DNA from: Impatiens glandulifera
Lineage: Eukaryota; Streptophyta; Magnoliopsida; Ericales; Balsaminaceae
Length of the DNA stretch: 64,000 bases
Assembly (NCBI RefSeq): GCF_907164915.1
Contig: NC_061862.1
Location: 91,064,051-91,128,050 of the forward strand
Direction of reading: 5' to 3'
Shown: positions 17,242-64,000 of the stretch, one piece after another
How positions within the stretch are numbered: position 1 is the stretch's first letter
Layout of the letters: the number at the start of each line of letters is the position of its first letter
The notes under the pieces: generated by a model
What the model was told of the DNA's origin: nothing
What the model saw: the letters and a program-made list of their open reading frames with translations, nothing else
Databases searched by the model: none
Program-made: the position numbers and the translations under genes

Positions 17242-17244
17242 ATA

Positions 17245-19521: not shown

Positions 19522-19556
<35 letters not shown>

Positions 19557-37818: not shown

Positions 37819-40375
<2,557 letters not shown>

Positions 40376-42073: not shown

Positions 42074-44471
42074 CACTAGAAAAAAAGTAACATTTAGGGG
42101 CGGTTTTTACCGCCTTTATTGCATAATTTACCGCTGTTAAAAGACAATTACGGCGGTAAAATTACCGTAGTCAACCGCCGTTAATAGTTTCGCCGTTAAA
42201 GAGATTTTGACATTTAAGGGTGATAAATTTACCGCAGATAATAGCCTTTAACTACGGTTTATAAAACCGTAGTTAATAGTCTCTAACTGCGGTCTATAAA
42301 ACCGCAATTAATAGTCTCTAACTACGGTTTATAAGACCGCATTTAATAGTCTCTAACTATGGTTCCTAAAATCGTAGTAAATTGTTTACTTATAAATGCG
42401 AGATTTTCACCGCAAGTAATAGTTTCTAACTGCGGTTTAAAAACCGCAGTTAATATTGGTTATAAAGGCGGTGCAAAACCGTAGTTAATAGTTAGTTGGC
42501 TATATATAAATGCGATATTTTTACGTAAGTAATAGTTTTTAAGTTCAGTTTAAAAACCGCAATTAATAGTGGTTATAAGTTAATAGTTAGTTGACTATAT
42601 ATAAAAGTAATATTTTTATCGCAAATAATTGTCTCTAATTACGTTTTAAAAATAGTGGGGTTATAAGTGTAGTTAATAGTCAATTGGAAACAATAAAAAT
42701 CATTCAAAATAATAGTATATAATTAACACTCCATTTTTATATTATAATATTATCTAAAAATATAATTATATCCAAATATAATTACATCAAAATATAATTA
42801 TATAGTATTCAAATTCATACAAATAAACATTATTATATCAACAAAAATTATCAAATCCCAAAATTTTAAACAACTTCTCTTCCTTCTCTCCGGACCTATA
42901 AAACATTCAAATAAAAATTTATCAATTAGTAACAAATTACATTTTTTTACTCTCTTTTAACAAGCAAGAACTAAGTTAAATATTTCCTATATTAAATAAA
43001 TTGATATAAATCACATATGATAAATTCATTGGAAGAGAGAATTCATACTAACCTGCTAATGCGCTGCAAATTTCCCTCAAAGAAATTTTATTGTTTCATC
43101 TATTTGTCATTTGAAGTAAAAAGAGATCACTGAAATAAAATCATGGAGAAAAATGAGGAAATCAATTTATGTTTTGAACATTCATTAATTCTTTTAAATT
43201 TATATTAATGACAACCACATTATGATCAACCTGAAATTCATGAATAATGTTAATTATATTCAATGACCCAATTTCTTGTCATGCTTCTATTAATACACAA
43301 TAACACAACTTAATAAATGAATCTTTACAAACCTACAAATAATCATTATCTCCAAGATGGAGGACCTGGCCGATGAAACAAAAGTACTATACTTACAATT
43401 ATGCGCATAAATCTTCTTCAAATGTACTTGTACAAGAGAGTAAGGTGAAGCGCGAGAAAGATATTAGGGAATGTAGATAATGTTGTTAGGGAATGTAGAT
43501 AATGCGCAAAAGAGAATAGGGAACGTAGGTAATGCTCGATAATAGGTTGAAGCTCCGCACAAAGAGGAAGGTGAAACCGTGTAGAAGAAAATGGAGGACT
43601 GTGTGAAGTGGAATAACCCTTAATTCCTTAATATTTTTATTATTTTATATAATTAAAATTTACATAATATTAAATGCAATAATTCTCAATTATATTTATA
43701 AATTTACATATTATATATTTCAAAGATATTATATGCATTTAATTTTTTAATTAAATTCTTATATTTTTTTATTCATATTTAAAAATTATAAATATAATTT
43801 TATTTTATCTACTTATAAGTACAAATATTATAAAAAAAATACAGTAATATTAATTAAATTATCTATTTTCTATAAAAAATATTTATATTCTCGTATTCTA
43901 CAAAGTTTATATTTGTTTAGTTGCTTTTATTATTATTTATGATTAACAGATTATAAATTATAAATAAAATAAAAATTACTTTCACGCACTTTCTTAATTA
44001 GTTTTTGATTGTTTATTTTTTTAATTTTCATTATTTAAAATCTGAAAATAATTTTATTGTATTTTATAATTTATAAATTAAAATACAGAAATATTATTAA
44101 TAATTAAACAAATTACAATTTTAAATACCTTTGAGTTTAAACTAAATTCAAAAACAAATACAATAAAAATGCTAAATAAATAATTGATAACAATTTATTT
44201 CCATTAATCAATAAGAAAATAGTTATTGAAATTATCAAATCTTCATTAAACATATTTTAGGAATGTAAATGAGATAAAAATAACTAGTCCTCTATATTTT
44301 AGAATTTATTTAATAAAGAGTTTATCTTAATATATATATCAAATTATAAAAGTACACAAAAATGATAAAGATTTTATCTTAATATATATATATATATGAT
44401 TTTATAAAAGTAATTTAGATATAAATTTTAATTTAAAATGATAGAGAGTTTATCTTCAATTAAAATATATG

Positions 44472-44531
<60 letters not shown>

Positions 44532-44947
44532 AATTTTATATTATTTGAAATTTAGATATATTATTTGTAAATGTGATTAAATTATTTAGTATAAAATTAA
44601 TCTTAAATATAAAAATAAAATAAAAATATTTATAAAATTGTTATGCACCTGAAAAATTACCTAGTTTTTATGACATTTGTTATCTATATAAATATAAATT
44701 TATAAATTAGACTTTTGTTATTAATTAAAATTTTATTTTATGAATTAATTTGTGATGAATTAGTCTATTATTTAATTTATTATTTAATTAGTGATTAAAT
44801 ATGAATAAGATTTAATATTATTTTTAGTACTATTTATAAACTAAATTTTTATAAAATTATGAAACCAAATTTTTTTTATGGATATAATAGGTTAATATTT
44901 AAATTTATAATATTATATAATTATTGACTCAATCACTATATATATTT

Positions 44948-45136
44948 TGAGGAGTGATAGAGATAGGGAATTTGGTGAGGGAGTTTGGTGAGAGAATGAC
45001 TTGGCATCACCTTCATTGGTTGGAAAATGTAAAAGTGAGAGGAAAGAGAGAAAAGAGAGAAATTATTTTAATTTTTTAGCGAATAAGATTATACAAGTCA
45101 TTCCCTCACCAAATTCCCTCACCTAATCATTTCTCA
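44948..45136 (+). mobile_element. Micron-like MITE, copy 3, nested in CACTA
   Basis: The same element as at 11713-11895: it starts TGAGGAGTGATAGAGATAGG and ends TCACCTAATCATTTCTCA, with the same purine-rich interior. It lies in AT-rich DNA inside the CACTA element, so it inserted later than, or travelled with, that element. Confidence 0.75.
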
Positions 45137-45212
45137 TATATTTTATAATAATAAATATATTAGTGGTTATAACTAATTTTATTACCGTTTAAAGTCTTGA
45201 TAATGTTAATTA

Positions 45213-45219
<7 letters not shown>

Positions 45220-45303
<84 letters not shown>
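45220..45303. repeat. (TA)n tract within the CACTA element
   Basis: One of several TA microsatellites inside the element; others lie at about 44480-44526, 46424-46505, 47342-47396 and 47774-47806. Confidence 0.9.
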
Positions 45304-45308
<5 letters not shown>

Positions 45309-46282
45309 TATATTATTTCAGAAATTTAATTAAAATATAAGTTAAAAAACTAATGCAACACAAATGCTAAGTAAATAATTGATAATAATTTATCTCCATT
45401 AATCAATAAGAAAATAGTCTTAACAATATCAAATCTCTATTAAACATATTTTTAAAACCTAAATGAGATAAAAATGACTATTTATCCTTATTTTTAAAAT
45501 TTATTTAAGCTAAAAAAAGATAATAGTTAATACCAAATTATATAAAAGTGTATACAAATATGATAAATAGTTTATCTTAATATATATAATAATTTAAATA
45601 TAAATTTTGATTAAAATGATAAAAAATTTATTTTCAATTAAAATAAATATAATATATATATATATATATTATATTATTTGAAATTTAGATATAATATTTG
45701 TAAATGTGATTAAAGTATTTACAATTACATGAACTAATCTTAAATAAAAAAAATATGTTTTTTTTTTTGTATATTATTGTGATAATTACATTAACTAATC
45801 TTAAAAAAATATTAAAAATTATAATTAACTAATCTTATAAAAAAATATTAAAAATCTTTACATAATTTTGATGCACATGTCAAATTACTTTTTTAAGACA
45901 TTTGTTATATATAAATATAAACTTATAAATTAGAATTTTGTTATTATTTAAATTTTATTTTATAAAATAATTAGTGATGAATTAGTCTATTAAATTAATT
46001 AATGTGAAAGAGAAAAATATTAATAAGATTTAATATTATTTTTAGTATTATTTATAAACTAAATGTATATAAAATTATGAAACTAAATTTAATTTAAATT
46101 TAACCGATATAATAGTTTAATATTTTAATTTATAATAATATATAATTATTGATTCAGTCACTTTTTTTAACTTATATTCTAATTAAATTCCTAAAATAAT
46201 ATAAAGAAATAATTTTAGCTCCTTAAAATTAAGTCAATATTTATTTTTAACTTACTTTTATAAAAAAAATTATATATACATA

Positions 46283-46420
46283 TGAGAGAGAATTGAGAAG
46301 GAACTTAGTAGAGAGAATGATATCCTAAATAGTTGAAAAAACTAAATAACTTTCTCTTCTCTTTTTTATCTTTCCTTCCACTCTTTTATTTTTCAACTTG
46401 ACATCATTCCCTCGTATCGT

Positions 46421-46425
<5 letters not shown>
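46283..46425 (+). mobile_element. Decayed Micron-like MITE, copy 4
   Basis: A shorter relative of the same family (TGAGAGAGAATTGAGAAGGA ... CATCATTCCCTCG) directly before a (TA)n tract (about 46424-46505). Ends and interior are partly deleted. Confidence 0.5.
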
Positions 46426-46514
<89 letters not shown>

Positions 46515-46901
46515 TTTTAATTAATAAATATATTAGTCATATATATATATATACTTGTAACTATATACATGTTATAATTTCTTTCATTACGGTTCAAAAG
46601 TATTGTTAAAATATATATATATATATATATATTACATTATTTCATTAATTTAATTAGAATATAAGTTTAAAAAATAATACAACAAAAATTCTAAATAAAT
46701 TCTAAATAAATAATTGATAACAATTTATCTCCATTGATTAATAAAAAAAGAGTATTCATAATATCAAATCTTCATTAAACATATTTTAATAATGTATATG
46801 AAATAAAATAACTAATTTTTTATAATTTTAAAATTTATTTGACTTAAAAAATATAATAGTGCATACCAAATTATAAAAGTTAAAAAATAATAAATATTTT
46901 A

Positions 46902-46938
<37 letters not shown>

Positions 46939-47338
46939 TTTTAAAACTAATTAGTGATAAATTAATCTATTATTTAATTAGTCATTAATTGTAAGAGAGA
47001 AAAATATTAATAAGATTTAATATTATTTTTAGGATTATTTATAAATTAAATCAAGTACGTAGGAGGATATACAGTCATATATAAATATGAAGTCTCAATA
47101 TAATATTTTATTATTTGATTTTTCTTTTTTATTGTTAATTCAGGTAAGGTATATTTATTGAACTAATGATAAAATAATATTTTAGAAGTATATATATTTT
47201 TTAATTAACTTATCTAATATTATATATATATATATGAAGAGGTTGGCATAAAAGATTCATTAAAATAGTTTTGTTTGAAGATAAATATGTTTTTTTTATA
47301 TAAATATAGTTTTGCAATATCTAACCTACTTTTATAAA

Positions 47339-47400
<62 letters not shown>

Positions 47401-47769
47401 TTTAAGTATGAATATATATAGGTTAAATTTAAACTTGACTCTCTATACTAGTTGAATATATAAAATATGAAGGTTTCATAGTTTTACATAAATTTAATTT
47501 AGAATTAATACTAAAAAAAAACATTGATTAGAAATAAAATTTTATATTAAATAAATATAACAATAATTAAATAGACTATAAAGAATAAATTAATTCATTA
47601 CTAATTAATTTATAAAATAAGAATTTAATTAATAAAAAATCAAATTTATAATTTCATATTTATATATAACATATGCCATTGTCAAAATTACGTTCATATA
47701 ATTATAAATAATTTAATTATATTTATAACATTATATTATATATATATATTACTCTACTAAATCTATATA

Positions 47770-47811
<42 letters not shown>

Positions 47812-48693
47812 TATATTACACAAATATATTTATTAATTCTTTATAATTAAACTTTTATAATTTTGTATACACAACTCTTTTGAAAATTATCTCAATTAAT
47901 TTTTAAAATAATAAAAATTAAAAATTATTAATAAGACTTTTTTATGGTTTATAATCATATAAGACTTATAACATTTTTTATTCAGTTAAATGTAAGACTT
48001 TTAAATGTGAATCTATATACCGCAGTTAAATATAAGACTTTTGACTGCGGTATAAAAAATCGCACTTAAAGATAAGACTTTAATTACGGTATAAAAAACG
48101 TAGTTAAAGATAAGATTTTTAACTACGTTTTTATATACTACAGTTAAATGTAAGACTTTTAAAGGCGGTTTTATATACCGTAGTTAAAGATAAGATATTT
48201 AAAGGCGGTTTTATATACCGCAGTTAAAAATAAGGTATTAACTACGTTTTTAAATACCGCCGTAAAATTTTACCGTTAAAAACACTTTTTTTACTAGTGG
48301 TCTGTACAAATAAACTAAAAAGATTAACTTTAAATCAATCATTTGGAACAAAATGTGATGCTTGCTTGCCTTTAACTTCAGCCTGATTTCACCTCTTAAG
48401 CAACAAGAGTGCCGACAGTGGTAGATTCACTACAAATATATAAAGTTCATCCTTGTCACAACTCATATTAATATACAACAGCCTTCAACATAATTGAAAT
48501 TCTTAATAGTCCATAACCCTTGCTATTGATTCAACTTATTTGAATTGAAGATGCATATTAATGTTACTAATGAACAGTCGAGAACCTATAAGCTTTTTTG
48601 TGATCGGGGTATCCATTTCAATCAGAAAATGGGCAATTAGTTGAATACACGAAAACAATAGATAGAGTTATTTTAAAGAATAACAAACATCTT

Positions 48694-49983
48694 TGTTTGG
48701 TTGAAAATTTTAATTAATTTAAAAATAACTTAACAATTTGATTTGATGTGTGATGAAATAGTTTTTGGATAAAACTAAGTTCAATAATTGTTAGTCATAT
48801 TAAATATATAAATATATATTTAGATATCAACATCTAAAGTGATGTAGTGCTAAGCATGCTCGTCTGTCAAACAGGTGACCTGGGTTCGAATCTCACCAGG
48901 TGCAGAATTAATAATTAGATTTTTGTTAATTTGCAGGCACAGCTGAAAGTCAACGCGGAGTTAGACCGATTTTATGAAAGAGTCTAATAGAAAGAGAAAG
49001 TTAGACGTGGGGTCTAATGTTAGTTCAGGCGTCTAATAGACTGTTAGATGGGGGCGTCTAATAGACTGATCAGATGAAAAACGTCTAATAGACTAATCAA
49101 ATGGGGGCGTCTAATGGACGGCTAAGATGATCAGATGAGGTGTCTAAGCAGATGAACGGCCAAGATGAGGCATCTAATGGACGGCTAAGATGATCTGATA
49201 GGCATCTGAAGGCAGATGCTCTTCCTGGCAGCTGGTAGTAGAGTATTCCAGGCAGCTGACAGCAGAGCTCAACAAATGAATAACCGCCACGTATGCCATA
49301 ATTCAAATTGCATGTACTGTATTGTACTACCACGATCTCAAGAATCTTTTTTTGATGTACTAACCAGTACCTCATGGATAGTATATCCAACGGAAAGGTG
49401 ACATGTGTCCAAAAGAAGGATTTGACCGTTGAAGCTTTTCAAGAATAAATTGCTGCCTAAGACAACCGACAAATCACAGGCTGAAAAATACAAGAAACAG
49501 AGAGAGAGCTACTTCATTCATTTTTCATTAAAGAAAATTCCTGAAATCAAACATCTCACTTATTATTTAGCTGTGAATACATTGTATTACATACTGTCTT
49601 TTCGGTGAGAAAACTTCAGTGTTGTAAGTTGAACAAAGGTTGTTTTGTTCAACAGAGAGTTAGCTAGATTAGTGAACTGTATTTGATTCAAAGAATTATA
49701 GTGAATCTTTCCGGTGGTTAGAAGAAGGGTGACGTAGGAGAGTTTGCTCCGAACATCCATAAACAAATTCTTGTGTTCTTTACTTTCTGCCATTCATCCT
49801 TCTTTGGTTCTTAGCTTCAAATCCGACGAACATTTTCGCACTTGAAAATCTGTTTCAAGAGTTCGAAGGATTTGCAAAGAATAGAAAGAGATATTAATCC
49901 CTAACAGGATTTTATCAAACTGTTTATCCGAAGTCGTCATCAATAGCCAGACCCCGTCTCTATTGGTGTCGTCGATCCTATCA
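48694..49983 (+). repeat. 5' LTR
   Basis: It begins TGTTTGGTTGAAAA and ends GATCCTATCA. It contains a tRNA-Asp-like segment (48838-48904) and a short tandem array of GGGGGCGTCTAATAGACTGA-type units (about 49010-49200). It is about 100 bases longer than the 3' LTR, mostly because of this array. Open frames at 49097-49390 and 49216-49401 are LTR sequence, not genes. Confidence 0.95.
48838..48904 (+). other. tRNA-Asp-like sequence inside the 5' LTR
   Basis: The segment reads like a degraded tRNA-Asp(GTC): a D-arm/A-box region (TGTAGTGCTAAGCATGC), anticodon region CGTCTGTCAAACAGG with GTC in place, then TGACCTGGGTTCGAATCTCA with a good B box. The acceptor stem no longer pairs properly and some anticodon-stem bases mismatch. 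It occurs in both LTRs, so it is part of the element, not a separate later tRNA gene. It could derive from an old SINE or from template switching to a tRNA. Confidence 0.7.
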
Positions 49984-49985
49984 AT

Positions 49986-49997
49986 TGGTATCAGAGC
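49986..49997 (+). promoter_or_regulatory. Primer binding site for initiator tRNA-Met
   Basis: TGGTATCAGAGC, two bases after the 5' LTR, is the complement of the 3' end of plant initiator tRNA-Met and is standard for Ty1/copia elements. Confidence 0.95.
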
Positions 49998-50035
49998 CTC
50001 GTTTTCTATTCTCAAGCTTCTAAAGAATCTGAATC

Positions 50036-51707
50036 ATGTCTATGGTTGTCATCAACAATGTTCCCATGTTCTCAAAGGAAAACTATGTTGTGTGGAAGGC
50101 GAGAATCCAAGCTCATCTAGCTGCCATAGATGATGACATGTGGTTTGTCATCACCGACGGTCCGATAAAGATTGAGAAGGCTAGATTTGAGTGGACCAGT
50201 GAAGATAAAAGAATGAACAACCTCGACAACATAGCAAAAGACATCCTCTACAAGACATTGGATGACAACATGGCATTCAAGATCATTACATGTCCCACTA
50301 CCAAAGATATTTGGGAGAAGCTGACTAAAATGTGTGAGGGCAACGAGCAAACAAAAGAAAACAGACTCATGGTTGCCACTCAACAGTTTGATAACTTCAA
50401 GATGCGTCCTGGAGAGACGATGACTGAGTTCGATGAGAGATTCAGTAAGGTTATCACTTCTCTATCCACTCTGGGCAAGACTTACAGCAACAGAGAGGTT
50501 GCGATCAAAGTCATGCGTGCTTTGCCCAGAGAGTGGGATATTAAGACGATGGCGATGAGGGAGTCTAAAGACCTCAATAGGATGGAGCTCTTTGACTTGC
50601 TGGTCGATCTAAAGGCCTATGAGTTCGAGTTGAATTATATAAATGAAGAGAAGCACCCCCACATCCACCATCATAACAAAGGCATTGGTGACTGTTGAGG
50701 AGCCATCTACTGTCACTGCTGTGAAGGCTACTGCTATGCAGATTAGCAGCAATGCCATGGCTCTTTTCATGAAGAAAATATGCAAATTCATGAAGAAGAG
50801 ACACTTCAAGGAAGGAAACAGCAAGCCGAAGCGTAATGAGAAAAAGAAAGATGAGAAAAAGAACAAGAAAGAGCTGAAGACTCTCATGGCGGCTGAAAAC
50901 AAAGCCAAGTGGGCCGACAACGACTTAGATGATTCATCATCCAACGTCAGTGATGATGAAGAGGTCACTTGCTTCATGGCAAAAGAAGAAGTTGATTCTG
51001 AGGTATTTGATTTCTCCTCTGAAAAATTCTCAAGAGATGAGTTAATTACTGCACTCAATTACGTGGTCATTGAGTACAAGAAACTGTCAAACTCTTTTGA
51101 TGAACTAAATTTGAAAAACAAATCTGACAGCTCTTCTTCATCTCAAAACAATGATTCTAAAGTTTTTGAAAACAAAATGGCTGAGCTCTCATCTGAGAAT
51201 GAGAAGCTCAAAGAAATTGTTCAAACTCTGTTTTCTGAAAACCAACGTTTGACATATGTGGTCGGTTCCTAGACGAAGTCTGGAGATGCAGTCAGACAGC
51301 AGATAAGTATGTTGAGGCCTGCCGGATGCAAATCCGGTTTAGGATTTGATGGCAATGACTCAAACAAGACTTTTGAAAAGTTAAACCCAGAAACTGATAA
51401 GTTTAAGTCTATAAACTTTGTCAAAGGGAGCTTAACTGAGAATGGAACTGATCCAAGCTGTGATGAGTTAACCTTAAAGGATGAGATTACTTATGTTCCG
51501 CCAACTGTTAGCTGGCTGAAACTTAAGATGGAAGCAGCCAATAAGTCTAGCATATTAAAACTTGACAGGAAGTCAAGGAGTTTTAGACAAAAACCATCCT
51601 CTAAGATTAACAGTTCAGCTGCTAGCAGAAAGACGTTTGCTAAGCATAAATCATACGCACCAATCACAATGCAACATGAAAAATCCATAAAAATAATCAA
51701 AGTATGA
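50036..51707 (+). pseudogene. gag: Copia gag, frameshifted and lacking its zinc knuckle
   Basis: The ATG at 50036 opens a frame with DUF4219-like F-x-x-ENYVVW near residue 13, followed by a UBN2/gag domain (about residues 70-190: DIWEKLTKMCEG, LPREWD, AYEFEL). The frame shifts near 50640-50660 into another frame (TKALVTVEEPSTVTA, FMKKICKFMKKRHFKEG, WADNDLDDSSS), which ends in an in-frame TAG near 51270 and then continues (MLRPAGCKSGLGFD) to 51707. The CX2CX4HX4C nucleocapsid knuckle expected after the basic stretch is missing. The product would be the capsid-type structural protein of virus-like particles; two breaks make full-length Gag impossible. Confidence 0.9.
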
Positions 51708-51849
51708 ATTCCCAAGGGACTAATAAGCCATGGACCCAAAGAAAAATGGGTACCAGATTCGTTATTGTCTTTGAATGTAGGTAAAACAGGAAAGCAGCTT
51801 GGAAGAGCTAGACGGCATCTGGACAACCGACTGCTCGGACATAGCATAT
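51708..51849 (+). pseudogene. Gag-pol linker and deletion junction
   Basis: A frame reading GPKEKWVPDSLLSLNVGK matches the linker that usually precedes the protease in this copia group. Soon after, about 51800-51850, the sequence jumps to the pol end. This is the internal deletion point; a single junction removed protease, integrase and RT. Confidence 0.6.
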
Positions 51850-51950
51850 GACAATCAGCAGCCTGAAGTGGCTGACATCTTCTCAAAGCCACTTCTCGAG
51901 TCTAAGTTTTCTTACCTTAGAAATATTTTTAGGATTGTTAGATTATGATA
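51850..51950 (+). pseudogene. C-terminal remnant of copia pol (RNase H end)
   Basis: The frame reads EVADIFSKPLLESKFSYLRN, the usual end of Ty1/copia polyproteins (ADIFTKPL...F..LR). It ends in a stop about 150 bases before the 3' LTR. Nothing of the catalytic RNase H core is left. Confidence 0.85.
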
Positions 51951-51976
51951 ATGCCTAGATTATGTTTAAATCATGA

Positions 51977-52097
51977 ACTCAACTAGTTTTGATAATTTAA
52001 TTTAAATAATCAAAAAGGGGGAAATTGTTGGTTTGAAATTTTTAATGAGCTCAACAGGTTTTGATAATTTAATTTAAATAATCAAAAAGGGAGAAAT
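51977..52097 (+). repeat. Duplicated purine tract / LTR-start boundary
   Basis: About 74 bases are repeated in tandem: GAGCTCAACAGGTTTTGATA-like sequence, ATAATCAAAAAGGG(G/A)GAAA, then TTGTTGG. The second purine tract (about 52083-52097) directly precedes the 3' LTR and is the presumed functional one. The first is followed by a few bases resembling the LTR start. Confidence 0.85.
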
Positions 52098-53285
52098 TGT
52101 TGGGTTGAAAAATTTAATTAATTTCAAAATAACTTAACAATTTGATTTGATGTTTGATGAAATAGTTTTTGGATAAAACTAAGTTCAATAATTGTTAGTC
52201 ATATCAAATATATAAATATATATTTAGATATCAACATCTGAAGTGGTGTAGTGGTAAGCATGCCCACTTGTTATACAGGTGACCTGGGTTCGAATCTCAA
52301 CAAGTGTAGAATTAATAATTAGATTTTTGTTCATTTGCAGGCACAGCCAACGCGCGCGAAAGTTAGACGTGGGGGTTCAGGCGTCTAATAGACTGATCAA
52401 ATGGGGGCGTCTAATGGACGGCTAAGATGATCAGATGAGGCGTCTAAGCAGATGAACGGCTAAGATGATCTGATAGGCATGTCTAATGGACGGCTAAGAT
52501 GATCTGATAGGCATCTGAAGGCAGATGCTCTTCCTGGCAGCAAAGTATTTCAGGTAGCTGACAGCAGAGCTCAACAAATGAATAATCGCCACGTATGTCA
52601 TAATTCAAATTGCATGTACTGCATTGTACTACCACGATCTCAAGAATCTTTTTCTAATGTACTACCCAGTACCTCATGGATAGTATATCCAACGGAAAGG
52701 TGACATGTGTCCAAAAGAAGGATTTGACCGTTGAAGTTTTTCAAGAATAAATTGCTGCCTAAGACAACCGACAAATCACAGGCTGAAAAATACAAGAAAC
52801 AGAGAGAGAGCTGCTTCATTCATTTTTCATTAAAGAAAGTTCCTGAAATCAAACATCTCACTTATTATCTAGCTGTGAATACATTGTATTACATACTGTC
52901 TTTTCGGTGAGAAAACTTCAGTGTTGTAAGTTGAACAAATGTTGTTTTGTTCAACAGAGAGTTAGCTAGATTAGTGAACTGTATTTGATTCAAAGAATTA
53001 TAGTGAATCCTTCCGGTGGTTGGAAGAAGGGGTGACGTAGGAGAGTTTGCTCCGAACATCCATAAACAAATTCTTGTGTTCTTTACTTTCTGCCATTCAT
53101 CCTTTTTTGGTTCTTAGCTTCAAATCCGACGAACATTTTCGCACTTGAATCTGTTTCAAGAGTTCGAAGGATTTGCGAAGAATAGAAAGAGATATTAATC
53201 CCTAATAAAATTTTATCAAACTGTTTATCCGAAGTCGTCATCAATAGCCAGATCCCCGTCTCTATTGGTGTCGCCGATCCTATCA
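52098..53285 (+). repeat. 3' LTR
   Basis: It begins TGTTGGGTTGAAAA and ends GATCCTATCA. It matches the 5' LTR along its length but differs by scattered substitutions, a shorter GGGCGTCTAATGGACGG-type array (about 52375-52520) and small indels. So the insertion is not brand-new. Confidence 0.95.
52239..52309 (+). other. tRNA-Asp-like sequence inside the 3' LTR
   Basis: Counterpart of 48838-48904. The A-box part (GTGTAGTGGTAAGCATGCCC) is closer to tRNA-Asp than in the 5' LTR, but the anticodon region (CACTTGTTATACAGG) has lost GTC. The B box (GGGTTCGAATCTCA) is intact. Each LTR has kept different tRNA features, so the ancestor was probably a better tRNA match. Confidence 0.7.
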
Positions 53286-53537
53286 ATCTTCAATGGCAAC
53301 TCCATTGGAAAGATCAAAAGCAGCGTCTCAACCTGAATTCTAAAACCTGAATTGAATTTCAAAGTTCAAAATAATTGCACCAGCAGTTAATAACATCAAT
53401 AATAGTTTCATTAACCAAACCCTAAATTAATATTCATCGAAATCATAATTTGGAACTTTAGTGAAAACGTTCTAACTCTTTCTTCTCCATGGACATTAAT
53501 GCGGAGAATGATAAGATGATAAAGAAATAGAACATGA

Positions 53538-53614
53538 AATCTGCATCGAGGCTCTAATGCGGTCGAGTCATGAACCATTTGGAGAATGAGAGGTCTTCTA
53601 GTTCCCATTTCCAC
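53538..53614 (-). pseudogene. DRP5A-like dynamin, second-exon fragment
   Basis: The frame reads EMGTRRPLILQMVHDSTALE then PRCRF, a hallmark of plant dynamin-related DRP5A-type proteins just after the P-loop exon. Homology stops after RCRF. On its upstream side it is fused to the RFC1-like fragment without a recognisable intron. The matching first-exon fragment is at 59755-59905. DRP5A relatives act in cytokinesis; this piece is not functional. Confidence 0.8.
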
Positions 53615-53639
53615 TTCACAAATTCTTCATCATCCTTCT

Positions 53640-54036
53640 CATCAACTATGTCTCATCAACTATGTGTTGTTTTTTTGTGAGGGAGTGGTTTCAATTCAGC
53701 TTCTTCCTTTAGAGATTTCCGTTTTTCTGAGTTCTCAATCTCTTGCTCTTTATCACTCTTAGTCTTATCATTGGCAAAATATTTGCTAGTTTTCTTTCGA
53801 CCGGAGTTCTAATTGCCTCCAGGATCCTAAGCACAACAATGACATATATACAAATTAGAATAATTACTACGGAGACAAATGAAATATTATATCACTCCAC
53901 ATAGAGAAATTTTGTACGCTTATAATCTTCTCCTGTTGTGAAGTAGCTGATGAAGACTTTTCAGATGTTGATGGCTATGTGTATTGCCACTGTCCTTGTC
54001 TTTTTTTCATAAACCACTTCCGAATATCCGACTGAT
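53640..54036 (-). pseudogene. RFC1 (replication factor C large subunit) N-terminal fragment
   Basis: Two exon-like pieces on the minus strand. The first (about 53935-54036) reads SDIRKWFMK followed by KDKDSGNT if one extra A is discounted; the start Met is lost. The second (53640-53826) begins at an AG acceptor and reads GRKKTSKYFANDKTKSDKEQ, the RRKTSKYF signature of plant RFC1, followed by a Glu/Lys-rich tail. The BRCT domain and AAA+ clamp-loader domain are absent. It is fused downstream to the DRP5A-like exon. Confidence 0.8.
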
Positions 54037-54040
54037 AAGT

Positions 54041-54317
54041 TAGACATGCAACACACAACAAGTATAATTAAATAATGATTCAGATAGATAAGTCTATAAA
54101 TGATGTCTTGTGCAGTTCTAATACAATACAATGGTGCAAATATGCCTTAAATGGTGTCTCATTCATTCAGATATAGTCATTGGAAGTTGATAACAAAAAC
54201 AAAAAAATAGGTATTAGAACTCACCATTTTCGAGTATCCAAACAATTCAACTAATTCTTTTCTTGTTCATTTCACAAGTAGACTGCCACGAAAAAAAAAT
54301 TCAAACTCAAAAGAAAT
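54041..54317. other. Intervening DNA left of the CACTA insertion
   Basis: Unassigned sequence between the RFC1-like fragment and the CACTA left end. It ends AAT, which is the target site. Confidence 0.5.
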
Positions 54318-55109
54318 CATTACAACAAAATATAGTTTCAGCAACGCTTATATGCCCACACATATTAAGTGTGGGTAAAAGTCAAGAAAATAAAAAGGTT
54401 TTGCCAACCTTTGATATACTAACAACTTTTATTATTTATTTTTTTTTATATATACTTGTTGACAAACTTATAATTTATTCACTTAAAATTTTAATATTTT
54501 TAACTTTATAAATATTTTATTTCATTATTTTAATTTTTATAAATAAATTTTATTTAAAACTTTATTAATATTAAAATTTAATTATTAATTTTTTATAAAT
54601 AACTAACCTTATCTCTTTTAATTAATTATTATTTAAATTTAATTAAATTAAAAATATATATATAAACTAAATATAAATTAGATATTATATTATATTAAAT
54701 TAATATTTTAGATTTTTTATGAAAATAAATATATAGATATTTGAATCTAACCTAATTCAATTTTTTTTTCTTTTATATATATATTTTTTGACAACCTTAT
54801 AATTTAATCACTTAAAATTTTAATATTTTTAACTTTTACAAATATTTTATTTCATTATTTTAATTTTTTCTAAATAAATTTTATTTTAAAACTTTATTAA
54901 TATTAAAATTTAATTATTAATTTTTTATAACATAACCAATTATATGCCTTTTAATTAATTATTATTTAAATTTAATTAAATTAAAAAAATATATAAACTA
55001 AATAAAAATTAAATATTATATTATATTAAATTAATATTTTAGATTTTTTATGAAACTAAATATATAGATATTTGAATATAACCTAATTGAACTATATTGT
55101 TTTGTTTCT

Positions 55110-55560
55110 CTCTCTTATGAAATGTTTCGCGGAGGCTCGTGCGAAGAAGATGAATATCTTGAGCAGCGACGAAATCCAACACTAAGAACAAGAGAAGGAG
55201 CTTCTAAAATAGCTGACTCCTAATTTGGCGATGGGCGGAAAAGGACAGACCGAAGCCGACTCTCGATTTGAGATCAAGTCGTCTTCATTGTTGCTGGTTA
55301 CGGTTCGAATCGTATGTTACTAGTCCTCTTCTCCGCTACTAGTTGGAGATCGATTTGAAGAAAGGCATAAGGGGTTTACCCCGCATTTCATCATATTTCT
55401 TGGTAAGTTGTAAAAATAGCAATAAACCTGTAATGAATCATAGCGAGTTTATTGAGAAATTTGGTTGGTCAAATGTACCTGTTGTTTCAGAGCAATTCGA
55501 TATAGCTTTAACGTTTTGGTTTTAAGTCGAAATTGGTTTATGTTTATTTCAATTTGGACG
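55110..55560 (+). other. Exon/UTR-like segment in the Pack-CACTA, unidentified
   Basis: This part is less AT-rich and has the look of a gene 5' region (GGCTCGTGCGAAGAAGATGA ... CGAAGCCGACTCTCG). A 60-codon frame (55343-55525) is open, but I recognise no family. It may be a promoter/first-exon piece captured with the FVE-like fragment or from another gene. Confidence 0.3.
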
Positions 55561-55977
55561 ACTATCAGTTTGATTAGTTGTTACTTTTCTGTTGTTCCAT
55601 CCACATGTTTGATAAAATGCTTCAATCAATGAGATTTCGTGTTTGAACTTTCCTTGCTCATCTGGTTTAGAGATTTTAATAAAATCGCATGCCACTATAC
55701 ATTCTCCCTAATGTACGTTTCACCGTTATTTGTTTTTAAAGAATCCAGGTGATGGGACAGGGAGTTGAAAGTGGTTTCTGACTAAATTTAGTTGAAGTTG
55801 GTATGAATTTAGTGTGAAGTGTTGCTGATGGATGAAATGTTAATCACTCTCCGAGTCTTTCCATTACCTTCAAGTATTTATTTGGTCTTTCAAATGCATA
55901 TTTTTATCATCTTCTTAATCCCATGTCTAATTTATTCTTACTCTAAGTCAACATTTGTTGCATATATGCACTATTTA

Positions 55978-58915
55978 TGGGAGAACAACCACATAGTTCT
56001 TGTCAAGAGGGATTTCATTCTTATTCAACTCATGGATGGTCAGGAACCTAACCGTAAAAGATTATGAGGTATTTATTTTTTATTACATTCTTTTGAATCT
56101 CATGAACTGTGCTTCTCATTTTTTTTAAGAATTTATTGCCTGCCCTTATAAATGAAACAAAATTTGGTGGAAGTTAAATGTGAGGAGATGTGGTTATGCA
56201 ATTGTTTATTCATTAAACAGTTTTTGGTATATCAACTAGAAATGTTGATACTTTTTTCTTTAACTTTTTTGATTTTTTTACAAGGAATAAGAGGCATTTT
56301 TCCTTTAGGCTTTATCCCTTTTTAGTTGTAGCGAACCCCTTAAGTGAATATTTGCGACAAGAAATGAATCCAAATTTTATGATGACTGACACTTTTAATC
56401 AGAAGATAATTTGTTCTTGGATTGGAAAGCTATGGGGCTTATGTTTAGAGGAAAATTTTTTCCTTTACCTCGTCAAACACCCTTGAGATTTTCAAGTGAT
56501 GTGTTTGGTTTATTACACCATTTAAAGAGAAATAGGGAATGAATTCTGATCTCAATTTGATTCTCACCCATCCATGCTCCAATAGTACTCTGTTTTGTTC
56601 TTTTAAATGTAGATAAATGTCGTTCAGTTATGGGGCATGTGTTCTGTATTTACCAAGGGCATCTTCTAAGTCTCCAGGATCTGTTGGTGTTAGCTCCAAA
56701 ATCAACTCAAAGGTTGCTAAGAAATCTGTCGATGGCCCTAATCTTTGTCCTAGAGGTACATACCAAGGGCATGATGATACTGTGGAAGATGTGTAGTTTT
56801 TCCCATCAAGGTAGGAAGAGTAGTATCTACAATCAAGACCCTTGATCTAGGGTTTTTTGTTGTTCTTGAACATACAAGTACTATACATGTTTATTCTTTA
56901 TGATTTTTTTACATTTCTCTCTAAATATTCTTGCTCGTTTTATAGAGACCAGTAACTTTACATGTGAACTTGTGTTACAATATCTATGAACATTAAGTCC
57001 ACTATTTTAAAAAATGTCAGTAGAAAAAGGTTGTGAACTGGAGAATTATCAAAATCTTGTTTTATAGTTCCTACATTTGTTATTAAAATCATTACTCTCA
57101 CAAAAGTATAGATCATGTTTGCTGCATTAGGAACTGCCTTCCCAAACTCCAGTTCATAATGAAAGTCTAGCTTAGTGAAATCTGGAAATTTAGCAAATAT
57201 GGAGCACTATTTTTATGCATTTTTTTTTGTTTCTAGTCATAAAATTGTTATATGGATCATCTGTATTATTATATATTTGTCAGGGTATTCCCGTGTAGAA
57301 CTGAGTAAATTTTATCATCCTGGTTGCTTGCCTTTTTCTTCTGTCGTATATATAGCTATTAGTCGTATATATAGCTATTAATACTGTTTTATCTGACTCT
57401 CTTTTGTACTAAAGTGGGCAGAAATTCTGTAGCGTTGGTAGGTACATTATGTTGTAATTCACTTCACGAGCTTAATAATTTCAAGTTTTTCTTAGAAGTG
57501 ATTATGATTATTACTACATGATTGGGACAATAAAATCTACTGGGTACTGCCTCAATAAAGTATACTATGCTTTAGAACCAGACTTAGTACTTCTGAAAAC
57601 TAAGGCAACTATTTTTTAGGATCTTCTTTTGTGAATTAAATCTAATTGTAGATTTCAATTGAAAGCGGAGAAATCAAAAGTTTATCTTTTTCTTCGTCAC
57701 ATTCTTTACTCATTTCATATTATGGTAATAAAGGAGCACAACCATAAGCATTTATTATAAAATGCGTATATAATCAAATATGAAAAGAACAAAATATAAA
57801 TAATATTTTATTCTTATCATCTTTCAAGGTGCAAACACAAACATTACCCAACCTTTTGCAAAATTATCCATCAATACATGATATATACAATATTTATTTT
57901 GATGATTATAACTATTGATAACATCTAATAAATAAGTGTAATAGCATGATTATAAATAATATATAAGAGTTCATGTTTGTATTAAATGAATTGTCATGGA
58001 GGCTGCTAGTCAATTATACGAACCACTGAGGAAAAAAGAATGACCCCCTATAAAGCTATTCAAGTTAAAAATAACCATCCGAATTCATGTTTCCTACTTA
58101 ATGTGACCGCCTGCCATTTTTGTTGGAAAAAATCCCCACTTTGCTCAAAGAGGATGAGCTATTTGGAACCCTACTTTATAGTTTACAATAACTTTATTCT
58201 GTTTTTTTCCTTGCTAAAAAGGAAGGATGCGGGTTTAAGATCCCTAAATGCTTACATGCAACATTATTACCAGTTCATCTTTTGCCTATAGTCCTGATCT
58301 ATCAATGACATTCACTTGTCTCTTCTATCGGTTGAGAAAGTTCACGATGCTGACCTTTATTGTGTTGATTGGAATCCACACAATGTTAATTTTATTCTGA
58401 CAGGGTATGTAATTTCCTTGCCATTATGTGATTTTTCAGTAAATTTGTTAGAAGTTAAGTTAACACGAGTTCATATACACATTTCTACTTTTTGTACATG
58501 AGGATGTAACTTCATTGATGCGTTGCTGAGTATTTTCTATAGTTTTTGATTCCGAGTTTCATTTAATTTGCATGGTATTCAACAGATCGGCTGATTATAC
58601 CATACGCATGTTTGACCGTCGAAATCTTAAGTCTGGAGGGGTTGGATCACATGCTCATGTATTTGAGGGTCATGATGTTGTTGTTCTCTGTGTACAGGTT
58701 TGCAATATATGATCAGTTATTCTTTTTTTTTGGTTGATTTATCTATTGAAAATAGCTTCTGACAATAAATGAATTGCAGGTTGATTTTTACAATAGCTTC
58801 TGACAATTGTTTCAATGATTTATTATTATTATTTTTGTAGTGGTCTCTAGACAAGTCATCTGTTTTTGGCAGTTCAGCAGAAGACGATATTTTTAACTTG
58901 TGGGATATTGAAAAG
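55978..58915 (+). pseudogene. MSI4/FVE-like WD40 gene fragment
   Basis: Several exons of a plant MSI4/FVE-type WD40 histone-binding protein are recognisable. A weak match lies near 55978-56067 (LMDGQEPN ~ QTDGSVPN). About 56613-56811 has VVQLWG and, in another frame, PRGTYQGHDDTVEDV followed by a stop. 58325-58404 reads VEKVHDADLYCVDWNPHN. 58586-58697 reads SADYTIRMFDRRNLK. 58841-58915 reads WSLDKSSVFGSSAEDDIFNL. The last three are joined in phase by proper GT-AG introns. The exon between ~56811 and 58325 (SVGDDSCL region) is missing and the C-terminus is cut off. FVE acts with histone deacetylase/PRC2-type complexes in flowering control; this copy is dead. Confidence 0.85.
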
Positions 58916-58924
58916 GTCTAAAGC

Positions 58925-59220
58925 CTAATCTACTAAATTATAGATTGTGTATATGCAATGAATAGACACAACTTTAGGATGTATTTAATGGTTTTCATAT
59001 TTTTGATTAAAAACTTTGTATCTCATTAGTATTTCTTATGTATTTAGAATTTTTGTTTAAATTTGAAAATAATTATTAAAATATATAAATAATAACTGTA
59101 AAAAAATGAAAATATAATTGCATGAAAAGCATAAAATAAAATCTGGAGAAAAAAAATATAGACCGAATAAAAAAAATAAAACAAAAAAACCGAAAAAATA
59201 ATGGGCTAAGAATTAATTCA
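58925..59220. other. AT-rich interior of the Pack-CACTA
   Basis: No coding sequence; it leads into the right subterminal repeats. Confidence 0.5.
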
Positions 59221-59646
59221 AAAATATATGGTACTGGCGACGCTTATTTTAATTTTACCAACGCTTATTTAAGCGTCGCTGAAAACCTACAACGACCCTG
59301 CTTTTGGTGACACAAGTTTAAGCGTCGGTGATATCTTTGGCGACGCTTTTAAACGTCGGCAAAAGTCTTTTTAAACGTCGGGGATGTCTAATTTGTTGTA
59401 GTGAATGAGACGTAATGATAGTTGTACAATGTCAGTTTATATTAACCAGGACAATATATATTCAGATTCCAAAGTTTTCTAAGAAGAAAGTTTAACGAGT
59501 GAAAAATAATACGACAATTTAGTGTTTTAAGCACCCATACTGAAAAAATAAAAAATAAATAATAGTAATCTCATCGATTTTAGATGACAAAAATGAAATA
59601 TAAAAAAAAATCAAATAAAGGAAGACTAAGAGGAAAATAATTGACC

Positions 59647-60027
59647 TTAATTTTGACTTGCAAGTTTTGAAGAGAACGTTTTAGGCTGAAAAATGACGTC
59701 CTCCGCTATGGAAACAGAACTCGACGCAATAGATAGAGAGAGGATTGTATTGACCAATAGATCTTCCAAGAGTGAGCTCTTGTCGTTGGACTGAGCTCCT
59801 AGGACAACGATCTCAGGGATAGGGAGCTTCTCACCGAAGGCAATTGCTGCTGCCTGTACACGATTGTAGGCCTCGATTCTAGCCTTGAAATTTGAGGACA
59901 TCCAATTTTGATTGGTCGATTGGCGGTGTTGATGTTTTCTGGAACAAATTATAAGCAATAAGATTGTAAGATCTATTGAGCAGTCGGCGCGCAGGGGAAG
60001 GGAGAAAGAGAAACAGATTGGGAACAT
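59647..60027 (-). pseudogene. DRP5A-like dynamin, first-exon fragment
   Basis: In the 126-codon frame, residues ~47-92 read ARIEAYNRVQAAAIAFGEK, LPIPEIVVLGAQSNDKSSLL and EDLL. That is the N-terminus and P-loop region of plant DRP5A-type dynamins; the usual GGQSDGKSS P-loop is here GAQSNDKSS, losing the Gly before Lys. After LLEDLL a GT follows (59754-59753), fitting a splice donor. The remaining residues (VNTILSLSIASSS...) are not dynamin. The first ~45 residues also do not match. The downstream exon is at 53538-53614, beyond the Pack-CACTA. Confidence 0.75.
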
Positions 60028-60102
60028 GGATGCTCAAAGGTTAATTTAATTTTTTTATAGGTAATAGCGATTGATATATGTACCAATCACTAATACAACT
60101 TA

Positions 60103-60275
60103 CACTACAACAAAAAAGGCTTTCGGAAACGCTTAAATAAACTTTTGTCAACCCTTAAAAGCGTCGCTAAAAATATTACCGACACTTATCTTAACGTCGC
60201 CAGAAGCAGGGTGGGCGTAAGTTTTAACAACGCTTATTTAAGCGTCGGTAACATTAAAATAAGCGTTGCCAAAAG
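60103..60275 (+). mobile_element. CACTA left terminus of a second related element
   Basis: CACTACAACAAAAAAGGCTT is followed by several GCGTCG/AACGCTTA subterminal repeats (to about 60275), the same type as in the 54318-59403 element. The element should extend to the right. No matching right end is seen before 64000, so it either continues past the window or is truncated. If complete, it would enclose the captured fragments at 60.5-64 kb. Confidence 0.75.
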
Positions 60276-60540
60276 TGTATTTCATTTTTTACAATTTTAT
60301 TTTATATTTCAATTTTTATAATAAAATTTTTTATTATTTTAAATTAAATAATCAATAAAAAGAACATTTAAAATATCATTTTTTTACTCGTTATTAACAT
60401 TTTAAATAATAAAAAATGAAATATAAATAATCTCAACAAAATTATCTCATAAAATCATATTAATACTTAAATAAAAAACATTAACTAATATATTACAAAT
60501 GTTCTAATAGTTTAAAAACAATTAAAAGACAATTTTATAC
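60276..60540. other. AT-rich DNA
   Basis: No features seen. Confidence 0.4.
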
Positions 60541-60549
60541 ATCCTATTT

Positions 60550-60665
60550 TTTTGGCACCAACTCCACAGCATCTCTAACACAATTTGGAAATGATATGTG
60601 ACCACCAGACATGTAATTAGATTTTGCATTGCAGCTGAATTAATAATGTGGTATGTTGCCTGCAA
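60550..60665 (-). pseudogene. Exon-like fragment of unknown gene
   Basis: After a TTGCAG acceptor (about 60659) the minus strand reads ATYHIINSAAMQNLIT and, one base shifted, MSGGHISFPNCVRDAVELVP. The two-frame continuity suggests a real exon with one indel. I do not recognise the family. It has the same orientation as the other captured pieces. Confidence 0.35.
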
Positions 60666-61376
60666 TGAGATCCAAAGAAAAACATTTCATTGCCCAACAT
60701 AAACAAATGGTAAATACAAAGTAAATTTCCTTTAACTAAATGAGAAAAAGAAAGTAAATTTCCTTTTAACTTAATGCGAAAAAAAATGTCAAACACACCA
60801 CTTCTATTCTTAAATACTCTCAACAAAAAGTGTTTGGATAATTTTTTCACACCAATGCATTCCAAAAGAGACTTTAATACTATATTATACAAAAAGACAA
60901 TTCTATATCCAGCAGTTGAGTCAAATAAATCTCTTTTAACTTACTCAATCTTCACACACTATAAAACAAGAAATCCCAATTAATAGAGATTTACTCAACT
61001 AAAGCTTATGTAATGTAACCTGCATAAGTATCTCCAACACCAATCCCAGTAAACCTAGTCTTTCATGTTCCAATGGAAGTTGTATGTTAGATTTTTCTAT
61101 TGAAATTGGAAGTAGAGGAAATAAAACTCAATAGTTCCACTTGTAAGTATCAACATCTGTAATTGGTATCAACAACTCTCTTTGGACTATACTTTGTCAG
61201 AAGACCTTTTAACCGTGAATACATAAATTTCCTTTCATCGAAATCAACAAGAAAAAAATGATAAGAATTATAAAAGTAACAGATAAGTTCACAGAAAGCT
61301 AGTTACGGACTTATATGAACAACAACATTTTCAATAATTGATTATCCCACTGCAGATCTGAGCTCATTTTAAGCAT

Positions 61377-61994
61377 CCTAAGTAGAATCAGTATTAAATG
61401 GACAAGAAATATAAATGCTAAGAGTTGGACGCTCATAAGGAGCATCCTGAAAGCCAAAAAAGGTCCATCATCACAAGTACTAATAGTGATGACCAAAATG
61501 AACGAAATCAAAATCAAATAGCAATAACAAATTAACAATATACATGAAAAAGACAAAAGATGCAGGGAAAGTCATGCATACCGCTTCTTTAGAAATAATT
61601 GCAAGCTCGCCTGACTTAACACCCTCTTAACACCCTGTTGCTAGAACTCTCTAGCAGCATAACCCTAAAATAATAATACAATATTGCATCAATTCATTTT
61701 GGTGGAGTTAGCAAAAATTAGGGTGGAAGGAAAGAAGTTTTCAGTCATATGAAGCCAAAATGTGCAATATGTTTGACATTAGTTGGAAACCCAATTCAAT
61801 CTCTCATTCCTCGACAACTGCAACGCAAATAATGATATATGATAGCACCTGAGCATAACATAATTAAGATATACAATGGATTCGGTATCTTCGTCCTACA
61901 TCAAACTTCGATTAGAGTACGATAATATCAGAATTGCGCAACTTACACCAGCGTTACTGCCTAGGATTACGTATTTTAAACTTTTCTCCGCCAT
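61377..61994 (-). pseudogene. Monodehydroascorbate reductase (MDHAR) fragment, three exons
   Basis: Exon 1 (61947-61994) reads MAEKSLKYVILGSNAG and ends at GTAAGT. Exon 2 (61582-61664) follows an AG acceptor in phase and reads GYAAREF, then a stop and a small insertion, then VKSGELAIISKEA. Exon 3 (from 61446 down) reads DAPYERPTLS before it decays. This is the N-terminal FAD-binding region of plant MDHAR, which recycles ascorbate using NAD(P)H. The FAD motif GGGVSAGYAA is shortened (GSNAGGYAA). The rest of the enzyme is absent. Splice sites are preserved, so fragments could be spliced if transcribed. Confidence 0.9.
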
Positions 61995-62280
61995 TGATTG
62001 ACTGCTCGTTGGCTGGCTTATCCATTCAGATAAGAAAACAGACTGAAACGCAGTTCAACATAGCTAATCAATTTTATTGTAATTATGTTATAATATGGAA
62101 CGCGTGATAAGCTTGAAAATCACCATAGCGTGGATCTGCAAAGGCTTGTTCGATCTTGGGTTATTTGAATAACCAACTGGTTATTTCAAAATAACCTTGT
62201 TGGGAGTATATATGTTTTGTAAATTTGGATATATATTTACATGAGATAATCTGACATGAATTATTGACTAAATTTACTAC

Positions 62281-62392
62281 CTGCTGCCAGCCAAGATGTG
62301 TGAGCTTTGCATCAAAAAACTCTTCTGACATGTATGCACTATGTTCTTTTTCTCCTGCTACATTATGGAACCTTGGGCATGCCTTACATGTT
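62281..62392 (-). pseudogene. Phosphoglycerate-mutase-like protein, single exon fragment
   Basis: The minus strand reads FHNVAGEKEHSAYMSEEFFD then AKLTHLGWQQ, ending at a GT donor (62280). This matches the exon after the RHAQG/RHG motif of plant phosphoglycerate-mutase-like proteins. Just upstream the histidine motif is broken: VRHAQG is readable only after a one-base shift (…GTAAGGCATGCCCAAGG). No other exon of the gene is nearby. Confidence 0.8.
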
Positions 62393-62399
62393 GTATACA

Positions 62400-63080
62400 A
62401 TACATAATAATTAACCAATCAAATGGCATGTTTTCAGATTGCAAAAAACATAATAAACGTGTTCAAGTTCTTAACAAATAAAATGAGATGTTAAAGAAAA
62501 ACTCCACTAACTAGATGAACTGTTTAACAACTATGAAGTGAGTATAAATTAGTTATACTGAAAGTATCAACCATGTATGCAACTTAACAGAAAATGTACA
62601 TCACAACAACAAAAACTCAAACATATCTTAAGAATTATCAGTGTAGAGGATAATAAAGCTCCTCTGTCTCTCTCTTTTCATTTTCATTTAATTGAATTGA
62701 ACTGTACACTACTATTTTAAAATAGCTCTCACTTGACCTAAATTTTGAGCTAAAGATAAAGATTATGGAAGAATTTTAATCTTCTGGTCTACTTTCAGAT
62801 CTAAGAACAATACAAAGAATATAAGGTGAAGTCTAGCCCAATCAATCAATCAATATTAGCAAGTTATGCATATCAGGGCAATCAAATCAAACAAAGACAA
62901 TACGATGAATTGGAAGTTGATAAATACGTGAAGAAGAGGAGATTGACATGCAAAATGAATCGTTTAAATGATATAGCAATGGCAAATAAAGAAATAGAGA
63001 GATTACCGGAGAAGAGAATATAGAGGAGAAGTTAGCAGTAGGATAAAAATTATGCAAATTTACAAAGAAAATAATTTTTC
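62400..63080. other. Unassigned sequence between captured fragments
   Basis: AT-rich, intron-like DNA. The plus-strand frame 62826-63023 has no recognised domain and opposes the orientation of neighbouring fragments; I treat it as chance. Confidence 0.4.
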
Positions 63081-63084
63081 TGCT

Positions 63085-63195
63085 CGGTAAGCACCAACTT
63101 TATGAATCCACCCGTCGTTCTGCAATTTAGCTTTCGAAGCTCTATATCCAGATCATTAGTCATACCTTGCATCTCTCCCTCTCCAACTATATCCA
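63085..63195 (-). pseudogene. Possible exon fragment of unknown gene
   Basis: The minus strand reads VDIVGEGEMQGMTNDLDIEL then RKLNCRTTGG over about 35 codons without a stop, with less AT bias than the flanks. I do not recognise it. It has the same orientation as the PPIP5K-like exons just upstream, but it does not match the next part of that protein. Confidence 0.3.
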
Positions 63196-63471
63196 CAATA
63201 AAATGAAATAACATGAACATCTATGCAGCATTGTAATCAATTTATAGTATTGTGTAATAAGAGAACATAGTAAAGCCAACCGAGGTGTGGATGTAGAGAA
63301 TCTAGGTCAAGAACTAAATCAATTGATGAATATAAGTGCAGAAAATGTTAGAAAACCAGTAAATATTAGATTCTCACTTTAGTATAGTGAATCATGCGAT
63401 TAAAGTTGAGTAAGTGACATTTACCCTAATCACATTATTGTAATAAAATAATATAGATTAAAAGCATATAC

Positions 63472-63983
63472 CTTATACACTTTACTTCGATCATGAAGAA
63501 GGTGTTGTTGTTTCAACTCATTCACAAGAAAGGTCCTGAAAATAGAACAACCGCCCAAGCCATAAAAGCGTGTAATGTAAAAGAATAACAGTAACATGTT
63601 TGCTTTCTCAATGCAGCATAGGCCTCTACTTTTTTAAGAGTAAATCCAGATAAATAAAAGGAAAACAAGCAATCACATACAGGCCATCTGGAAATTTAGA
63701 TTCACAAACAGATTATGCTGACATACATTATAGGTTTATATCAAATCCACTCTCAAAAGTGCCAAATATACTATGATAATATCGTAGAATCAAATATACC
63801 TTTCAATTGGATCCCCCATAATAACTTTATCCCCAAATATACCATCTACAGAAACGCTAATAACACATAATAAGACTAAATATAGCATATCAAGAGATCA
63901 TGCAACATTAAATGATGTGAATAGCTTAAACTCGCCAAAAGCCTCTAATTGACTCAAAATTCGTCCCATAGGATTGAGCGTGC
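63472..63983 (-). pseudogene. VIP1/VIH-type PPIP5 kinase, N-terminal exon fragments
   Basis: Three exon-like pieces on the minus strand. About 63930-63983 reads LNPMGRILSQLEAFGEFK after an AG acceptor. 63800-63845 reads GIFGDKVIMGDPIER between AG and GT. 63472-63535 reads TFLVNELKQQHLLHDRSKVY between AG and GT. They match successive parts of the N-terminal ATP-grasp domain of plant diphosphoinositol-pentakisphosphate kinases ([38 protein letters not shown]). At least one exon (CDCLIAF region) is missing and the catalytic part does not follow. Further exons may lie beyond 64000. Confidence 0.8.
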
Positions 63984-64000
63984 CTGTAAAAATCATCTTA

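Follow-up and report, generated by a model that had tools for sequence, protein, structure and literature searches.

Host-gene fragments in a probable cluster of decayed CACTA-type transposons of Impatiens glandulifera

How do exon fragments of unrelated genes come to lie side by side at positions 53538-63983 of a 64,000-nucleotide stretch of the Impatiens glandulifera genome (contig NC_061862.1; hereafter the window)? A preliminary description, made from the sequence by eye, presented the interval as one train of fragments, all on the minus strand and presumably captured by mobile elements. The gene debris is genuine; it is not a single train and not confined to a single strand. It splits into three units, which are transposon element A, transposon element B, and a DRP5A-RFC1-DRP5A mosaic around A. 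In our view the interval is probably a group of CACTA (En/Spm-type) transposons of the Pack-CACTA kind that picked up host-gene pieces at the DNA level and have since decayed. Transposon capture has support from CACTA termini, a target site duplication of 3 bp, subterminal repeats (weak at the left end of A), retained introns, and the full-length relatives of two source genes. Six source genes were identified (PPIP5K/VIH, MDHAR, pyruvate dehydrogenase E1 beta, MSI4, RFC1, and a member of the dynamin family), and two exon groups are without identification.

The ends of the elements were located by scanning both strands of the window for the terminal inverted repeat (TIR) CACTACAACAAAA, with two mismatches allowed. 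Of the ten sites found, four have one mismatch or none, and two of these four bound element A, at 54318 (CATTACAACAAAA) and 59403 (ATTTGTTGTAGTG). These 13-bp ends are inverted repeats of the type that begins with CACTA: the right end reads CACTACAACAAA, the left end CATTACAACAAAA has one change inside CACTA, and AAT stands on either side of the element. Element B has an exact copy of the repeat at 60103, with TTA just before it. A and B belong to the same family, and their matching ends face each other across 699 bp holding a DRP5A piece. The right end of A matches the left end of B in inverted orientation over 169-170 bp at 76%, with a score of 69.5, the maximum in 100 dinucleotide shuffles being 14.5. 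The right end of A has strong subterminal repeats of the CGACGCTTA type; the left end has one such motif and aligns weakly.

Element A holds a 2.25-kb piece of an MSI4/FVE-like gene, FVE being another name for MSI4. Its five exons are collinear on the plus strand and had been overlooked, so that the claim of an all-minus train does not hold. A tblastn search with the I. glandulifera protein P0003 placed on the plus strand residues 209-262 at 56659-56820, 259-267 at 57413-57439, 285-311 at 58325-58405, 299-348 at 58548-58697 (the exon proper starting at 58586), and 352-374 at 58850-58918. The second of these matches covers 9 residues (E 4.0), and its position and splice borders are the only grounds for counting it. 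The piece matches RBBP4-type WD40 proteins (best E 8.1e-15), and it was the only one of eight short peptides compared with Pfam to pass the curated cut-off (WD40, 29.8 bits against 27). We assigned this WD40 piece to MSI4 because the P0003 relative ranks first in the protein search: P0003 was the closest of 28 matches among 30 candidates, with 78% identity over 94% of the query, and the runners-up reached 76% over just 55%, or 61% over 91%. A CACTA-like end near 58835-58842 coincides with an MSI4 splice acceptor and was not counted as an element end. Element A also contains an AT-rich unit of 331 bp, present as two copies in tandem (54431-55095), and, on the plus strand at 55177-55402, an exon-like stretch with a stop and with GTAAGT at its end; this possible extra exon at ~55.2-55.4 kb had no PDB match.

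The reversed MSI4 piece bears on how many elements were involved. Helitrons have a 5' TC and a 3' hairpin with CTRR, insert between A and T, and make no target site duplication. Uptake of every fragment in the same orientation by one large element, a Helitron or a single Pack element, would agree with the minus-strand position of seven out of eight fragment groups between 53.5 and 64 kb. We regard it as very unlikely, given that MSI4 lies on the plus strand and that the CACTA ends divide the interval into separate units (Helitron ends themselves were not searched for). The pieces fall instead into at least two separate CACTA elements plus the DRP5A/RFC1 mosaic. Of the preliminary proposal of capture by mobile elements, capture itself is supported by the CACTA ends, target site duplication, introns, and relatives, and the argument from uniform orientation fails with the reversal of MSI4.

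For the remaining fragments, 53.0-64.0 kb was read on the minus strand and fragments were translated in three frames. For pyruvate dehydrogenase, MDHAR, VIH, MSI4, and dynamin, exons or frames were linked manually into one reading, a step that raises the scores of these readings, and fragment identities other than PPIP5K rest on short exon queries. Element B, from 60103 rightwards, holds pieces of VIH (as PPIP5K is called in plants), MDHAR, pyruvate dehydrogenase E1 beta, a putative phosphoglycerate-mutase (PGM)-like gene, and one further unnamed gene, and would be expected to end on the right with a TTTTGTTGTAGTG-like end followed by TTA. Two of the names first given to these pieces were borne out by searches. 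The PPIP5 kinase piece matched PPIP5K2_N (E 5.4e-9), the sole Pfam match of the raw minus-strand frames over 54001-63998, and PPIP5K2 in the PDB (E 1e-17, exons joined by hand). The hand-joined MDHAR exons matched the rice enzyme (E 1.1e-17), and a short MDHAR peptide reached Pyr_redox_2 of Pfam at E 0.047, below the curated cut-off. One of two exons that had been left unnamed belongs to pyruvate dehydrogenase E1 beta (E 3.7e-5, hand-joined reading; its short peptide had no Pfam match). The other, at 63064-63186, remained without a PDB or Pfam match in both readings. The PGM-like exon likewise had no PDB or Pfam match; its label is our assumption and was confirmed by no search.

The third unit lies on both sides of A. 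Its RFC1 piece, named correctly at the outset, is 76% identical to the I. glandulifera protein P0001 (E 4.1e-18) and 74% identical to P0002; no other of the 53 candidates matched at E <= 1. Both the RFC1 and the MSI4 piece have their nearest relatives in full-length genes of I. glandulifera, which lie on separate large contigs of 68,082,729 and 65,853,558 bases and code for full-length RFC1-like and MSI4-like proteins. The piece first called DRP5A belongs to the dynamin family (E 5.3e-9 with exons 1 and 2 joined through X); exon 1 alone gave E 0.018, and a short peptide matched Dynamin_N of Pfam at E 0.038, below the curated cut-off. The DRP5A subtype, presumed here and derived from no search, found no backing in a DRP5A protein search, in which none of 13 candidates matched at E <= 1.

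Table 1. Positions of transposons, captured fragments, and neighbouring features in the window
Feature	Position	Strand	Remarks
Element A, CACTA-type transposon	54318..59403		Ends CATTACAACAAAA / ATTTGTTGTAGTG; target site duplication AAT/AAT; no transposase detected
MSI4/FVE-like fragment in A	56665..58917	+	Exons 56665-56810, 57415-57437, 58331-58404, 58586-58697, 58841-58917; ~residues 209-374 of P0003
Element B, CACTA-type, same family as A	60103..64000		Exact end CACTACAACAAAA; other end beyond window
PPIP5K/VIH fragment in B, four exons	63472..63969	-	Pfam and PDB matches
Unnamed exon-like stretch in B	63064..63186	-	AG...GT borders; no match
Phosphoglycerate-mutase-like exon in B	62281..62382	-	Presumed label; no match
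MDHAR exons 1-3 in B	61417..61994	-	Stop and frameshift in exon 2
Pyruvate dehydrogenase E1 beta fragment in B	60573..61206	-	Hand-joined reading
DRP5A-like (dynamin family) exon 1, between A and B	59755..59901	-	P-loop GAQSNDKSS
RFC1 5' part (ATG exon, exon 2, exon 3)	53617..54240	-	Two introns kept; stops and 14-bp tandem duplication
DRP5A-like exon 2 piece, directly joined to RFC1 exon 3	53537..53617	-	No splice border at junction
Copia-type retrotransposon with long terminal repeats, beside mosaic	48694..53285	+	gag present; target site duplication ATCTT
Element C, CACTA-type, another family	42074..48299		Target site duplication GTC
CGATT/AATCG motif cluster	41777..41930	+	Possible left end of a putative older element D

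The pieces keep the structure of genomic DNA. As first noted for several of them, their GT/AG borders look serviceable: GT or AG is retained at 25 of 28 counted exon borders (VIH 7, exon 63064-63186 2, PGM-like 2, MDHAR 4, DRP5A 1, RFC1 4, MSI4 8), which were placed by eye, a procedure with a bias towards GT/AG, the pyruvate dehydrogenase pieces and outer fragment edges being left out of the count. The three failing borders are the donors of VIH exons 1 and 3 and the acceptor of MSI4 exon 3. Since the introns are in place, the captured material was DNA and not spliced RNA.

Decay is evident in the reading frames. Stops interrupt RFC1 exons 2 and 3, MDHAR exon 2, and MSI4 exon 1; RFC1 exon 3 contains the 14-bp tandem duplication; and the P-loop of the DRP5A piece has DKS in GAQSNDKSS in place of the GKS of the aligned dynamins. 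The VIH and PGM-like exons, on the other hand, have uninterrupted readings in single frames. A coding function of the fragments was rejected on the stops, frameshifts, the altered P-loop, and a longest stop-to-stop frame in the interval of 128 aa, and the pieces would thus yield no working protein. A chimeric transcript is possible because splice signals survive, and the locus might be transcribed and spliced into such an RNA, or be a source of antisense or small RNAs acting on the source genes. Besides the splice signals, the soybean element Tgm-Express1 provides a precedent, with five gene fragments spliced as extra exons (PMC1947982), and the DRP5A piece is flanked by a 170-bp inverted repeat made up of the ends of A and B. 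We judge either outcome unlikely: the short frames, stops, frameshifts, and changed P-loop speak against it, the RFC1 and MSI4 pieces have only ~72-87% protein identity to the Impatiens genes, and the DRP5A piece would sit in the loop and not in the stem.

Several observations weigh against a cluster of captured-gene CACTA transposons. The triplet AAT makes up 5.1% of window triplets (GTC, 0.7%; ATCTT, 0.2% of 5-mers), and because it is so frequent, the duplication around A is by itself weak evidence and could have arisen by chance. The left end of A carries a C-to-T change, and beyond the TIR its alignments with the right end of A (score 13.0) and with the B end (16.0) were each equalled by 1 of 100 shuffles. 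The partner end of B lies outside the window, past base 64000, and the fourth TIR site with at most one mismatch, at 62602, is probably a chance occurrence. Captured host-gene DNA without transposase, the mark of a Pack-CACTA element, was found, its transposase part as a weak negative. No Pfam transposase domain was present in the frames scanned (minus strand 54001-63998, plus strand 53001-63000, with B present in part), and the raw plus-strand frames had no Pfam match at all; the same scan did not pick up the MDHAR, WD40, or dynamin pieces either, and since it overlooked known gene pieces in the same frames, its silence on transposase carries little force. These points leave our confidence in the cluster as it was, since its main support is the match between the ends of A and B, together with the fragments and the introns.

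How the mosaic around A arose is a separate matter. The pieces follow one another as DRP5A, RFC1, DRP5A, an order that agrees with a switch of template in the course of gap repair, and the mosaic may have arisen in that way or through a previous capture event, possibly within an older element, D. A CGATT/AATCG cluster to the left of element C (41776-41930) suggests where D might begin: it has five motifs against 0.18 expected, the next densest place in the window having four. ATTGGTAC and ATCAATCGCTA, chosen after seeing the end alignment, are present in this cluster and occur elsewhere in the window once each, inverted, at 60080 and 60065. An element running from 41.8 kb to beyond B would enclose the mosaic. 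A further point against our reading is that the D end alignment (score 15.5) was equalled by 4 of 200 shuffles and the direct-orientation control scored 13.0, for which reasons D remains a guess. Slightly less than an even chance is given to the alternative that the mosaic lies outside any transposon, as an ordinary end-joining rearrangement later hit by the A and Copia insertions, with B and C nearby; this origin is compatible with A and B as gene-capturing CACTA elements. The weakness of the evidence for D, with its score reached by 4 of 200 shuffles, favours end joining, as does the absence of a splice border where RFC1 exon 3 runs into DRP5A exon 2. Against it stand the five motifs within 155 bp, the densest in the window, the inverted recurrence of two of them only at 60065-60087 (motifs picked after the alignment was seen), and a fragment order that template switching leads one to expect.

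Gene capture by CACTA elements is a known process, and the Impatiens case is a good example of it and not a new kind of system. Tgm-Express1, in the soybean wp allele, is described as a CACTA element of 5.7 kb in which fragments of five unrelated host genes become additional exons of the host transcript through splicing (PMC1947982). The Impatiens elements resemble it in carrying several unrelated host gene fragments with exons and introns kept. They differ in that Tgm-Express1 lies in an intron of an expressed gene, with splicing of its fragments shown (PMC1947982), whereas the Impatiens elements are several, close together, and decayed. Pack-TYPE elements are reported to hold DNA from several loci in some cases, the Pack-CACTAs of maize the most (PMC8903248), and uptake has been proposed to proceed via re-mobilisation of neighbouring insertions (PMC8903248; PMC13317346). 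The Pack-CACTA elements described in Arabidopsis and maize, which often combine several loci in one element (PMC8903248), share with those of Impatiens the CACTACAA-type ends and the captured coding DNA; the Impatiens elements differ in including two of the same family with matching ends facing, 699 bp apart, around the DRP5A piece. Gene fragments captured inside CACTA elements are also described in Chenopodium, next to element coding sequence with a TAD domain (PMC8978399), whereas in Impatiens no transposase domain was found in the frames scanned, B being seen in part. Of nine papers found on CACTA transposons and Impatiens, none had gene capture in its title. The present locus documents multi-gene capture by CACTA elements in this genus.

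The A/B pair is mildly unusual in its facing ends 699 bp apart and in the labelled captured genes directed towards the matching end. The sense strands of the five labelled genes captured in A and B (MSI4, VIH, PGM-like, MDHAR, and pyruvate dehydrogenase) have the same direction relative to that end; this could be chance, with a probability of roughly 1 in 16 once the first is given, should the five be independent. A, the 699-bp DRP5A stretch, and B might together be a composite in the making, with outer ends able to mobilise the whole, and the shared direction might mean that capture or retention follows the direction of the element, an improbable pair of readings in our view. As neighbouring elements of one family, A and B offer a clear case for checking the neighbouring-insertion model of gene capture. 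The locus is also a warning for annotation, as eight exon groups in ~10 kb resemble genes and are debris.

The neighbouring insertions are of two types. The Copia element contains gag (Retrotran_gag_2 of Pfam, E 6.1e-21), and its long terminal repeats are identical at 1122 of 1169 ungapped sites. Element C shows the features of a CACTA transposon, with inverted ends CACTAGAAAAAAAGT / CACTAGTAAAAAAAG and a GTC/GTC duplication; a six-frame search of 42001-47000 gave no Pfam domain, and C is AT-rich. Farther left, two short-chain dehydrogenase reading frames (Pfam adh_short_C2), one per strand, occupy 31933-32856 and 40639-41370, and related repeat arrays at 17241-20277 and 38098-40270 are mutually inverted, with ~78-90% identity in the listed pairs.

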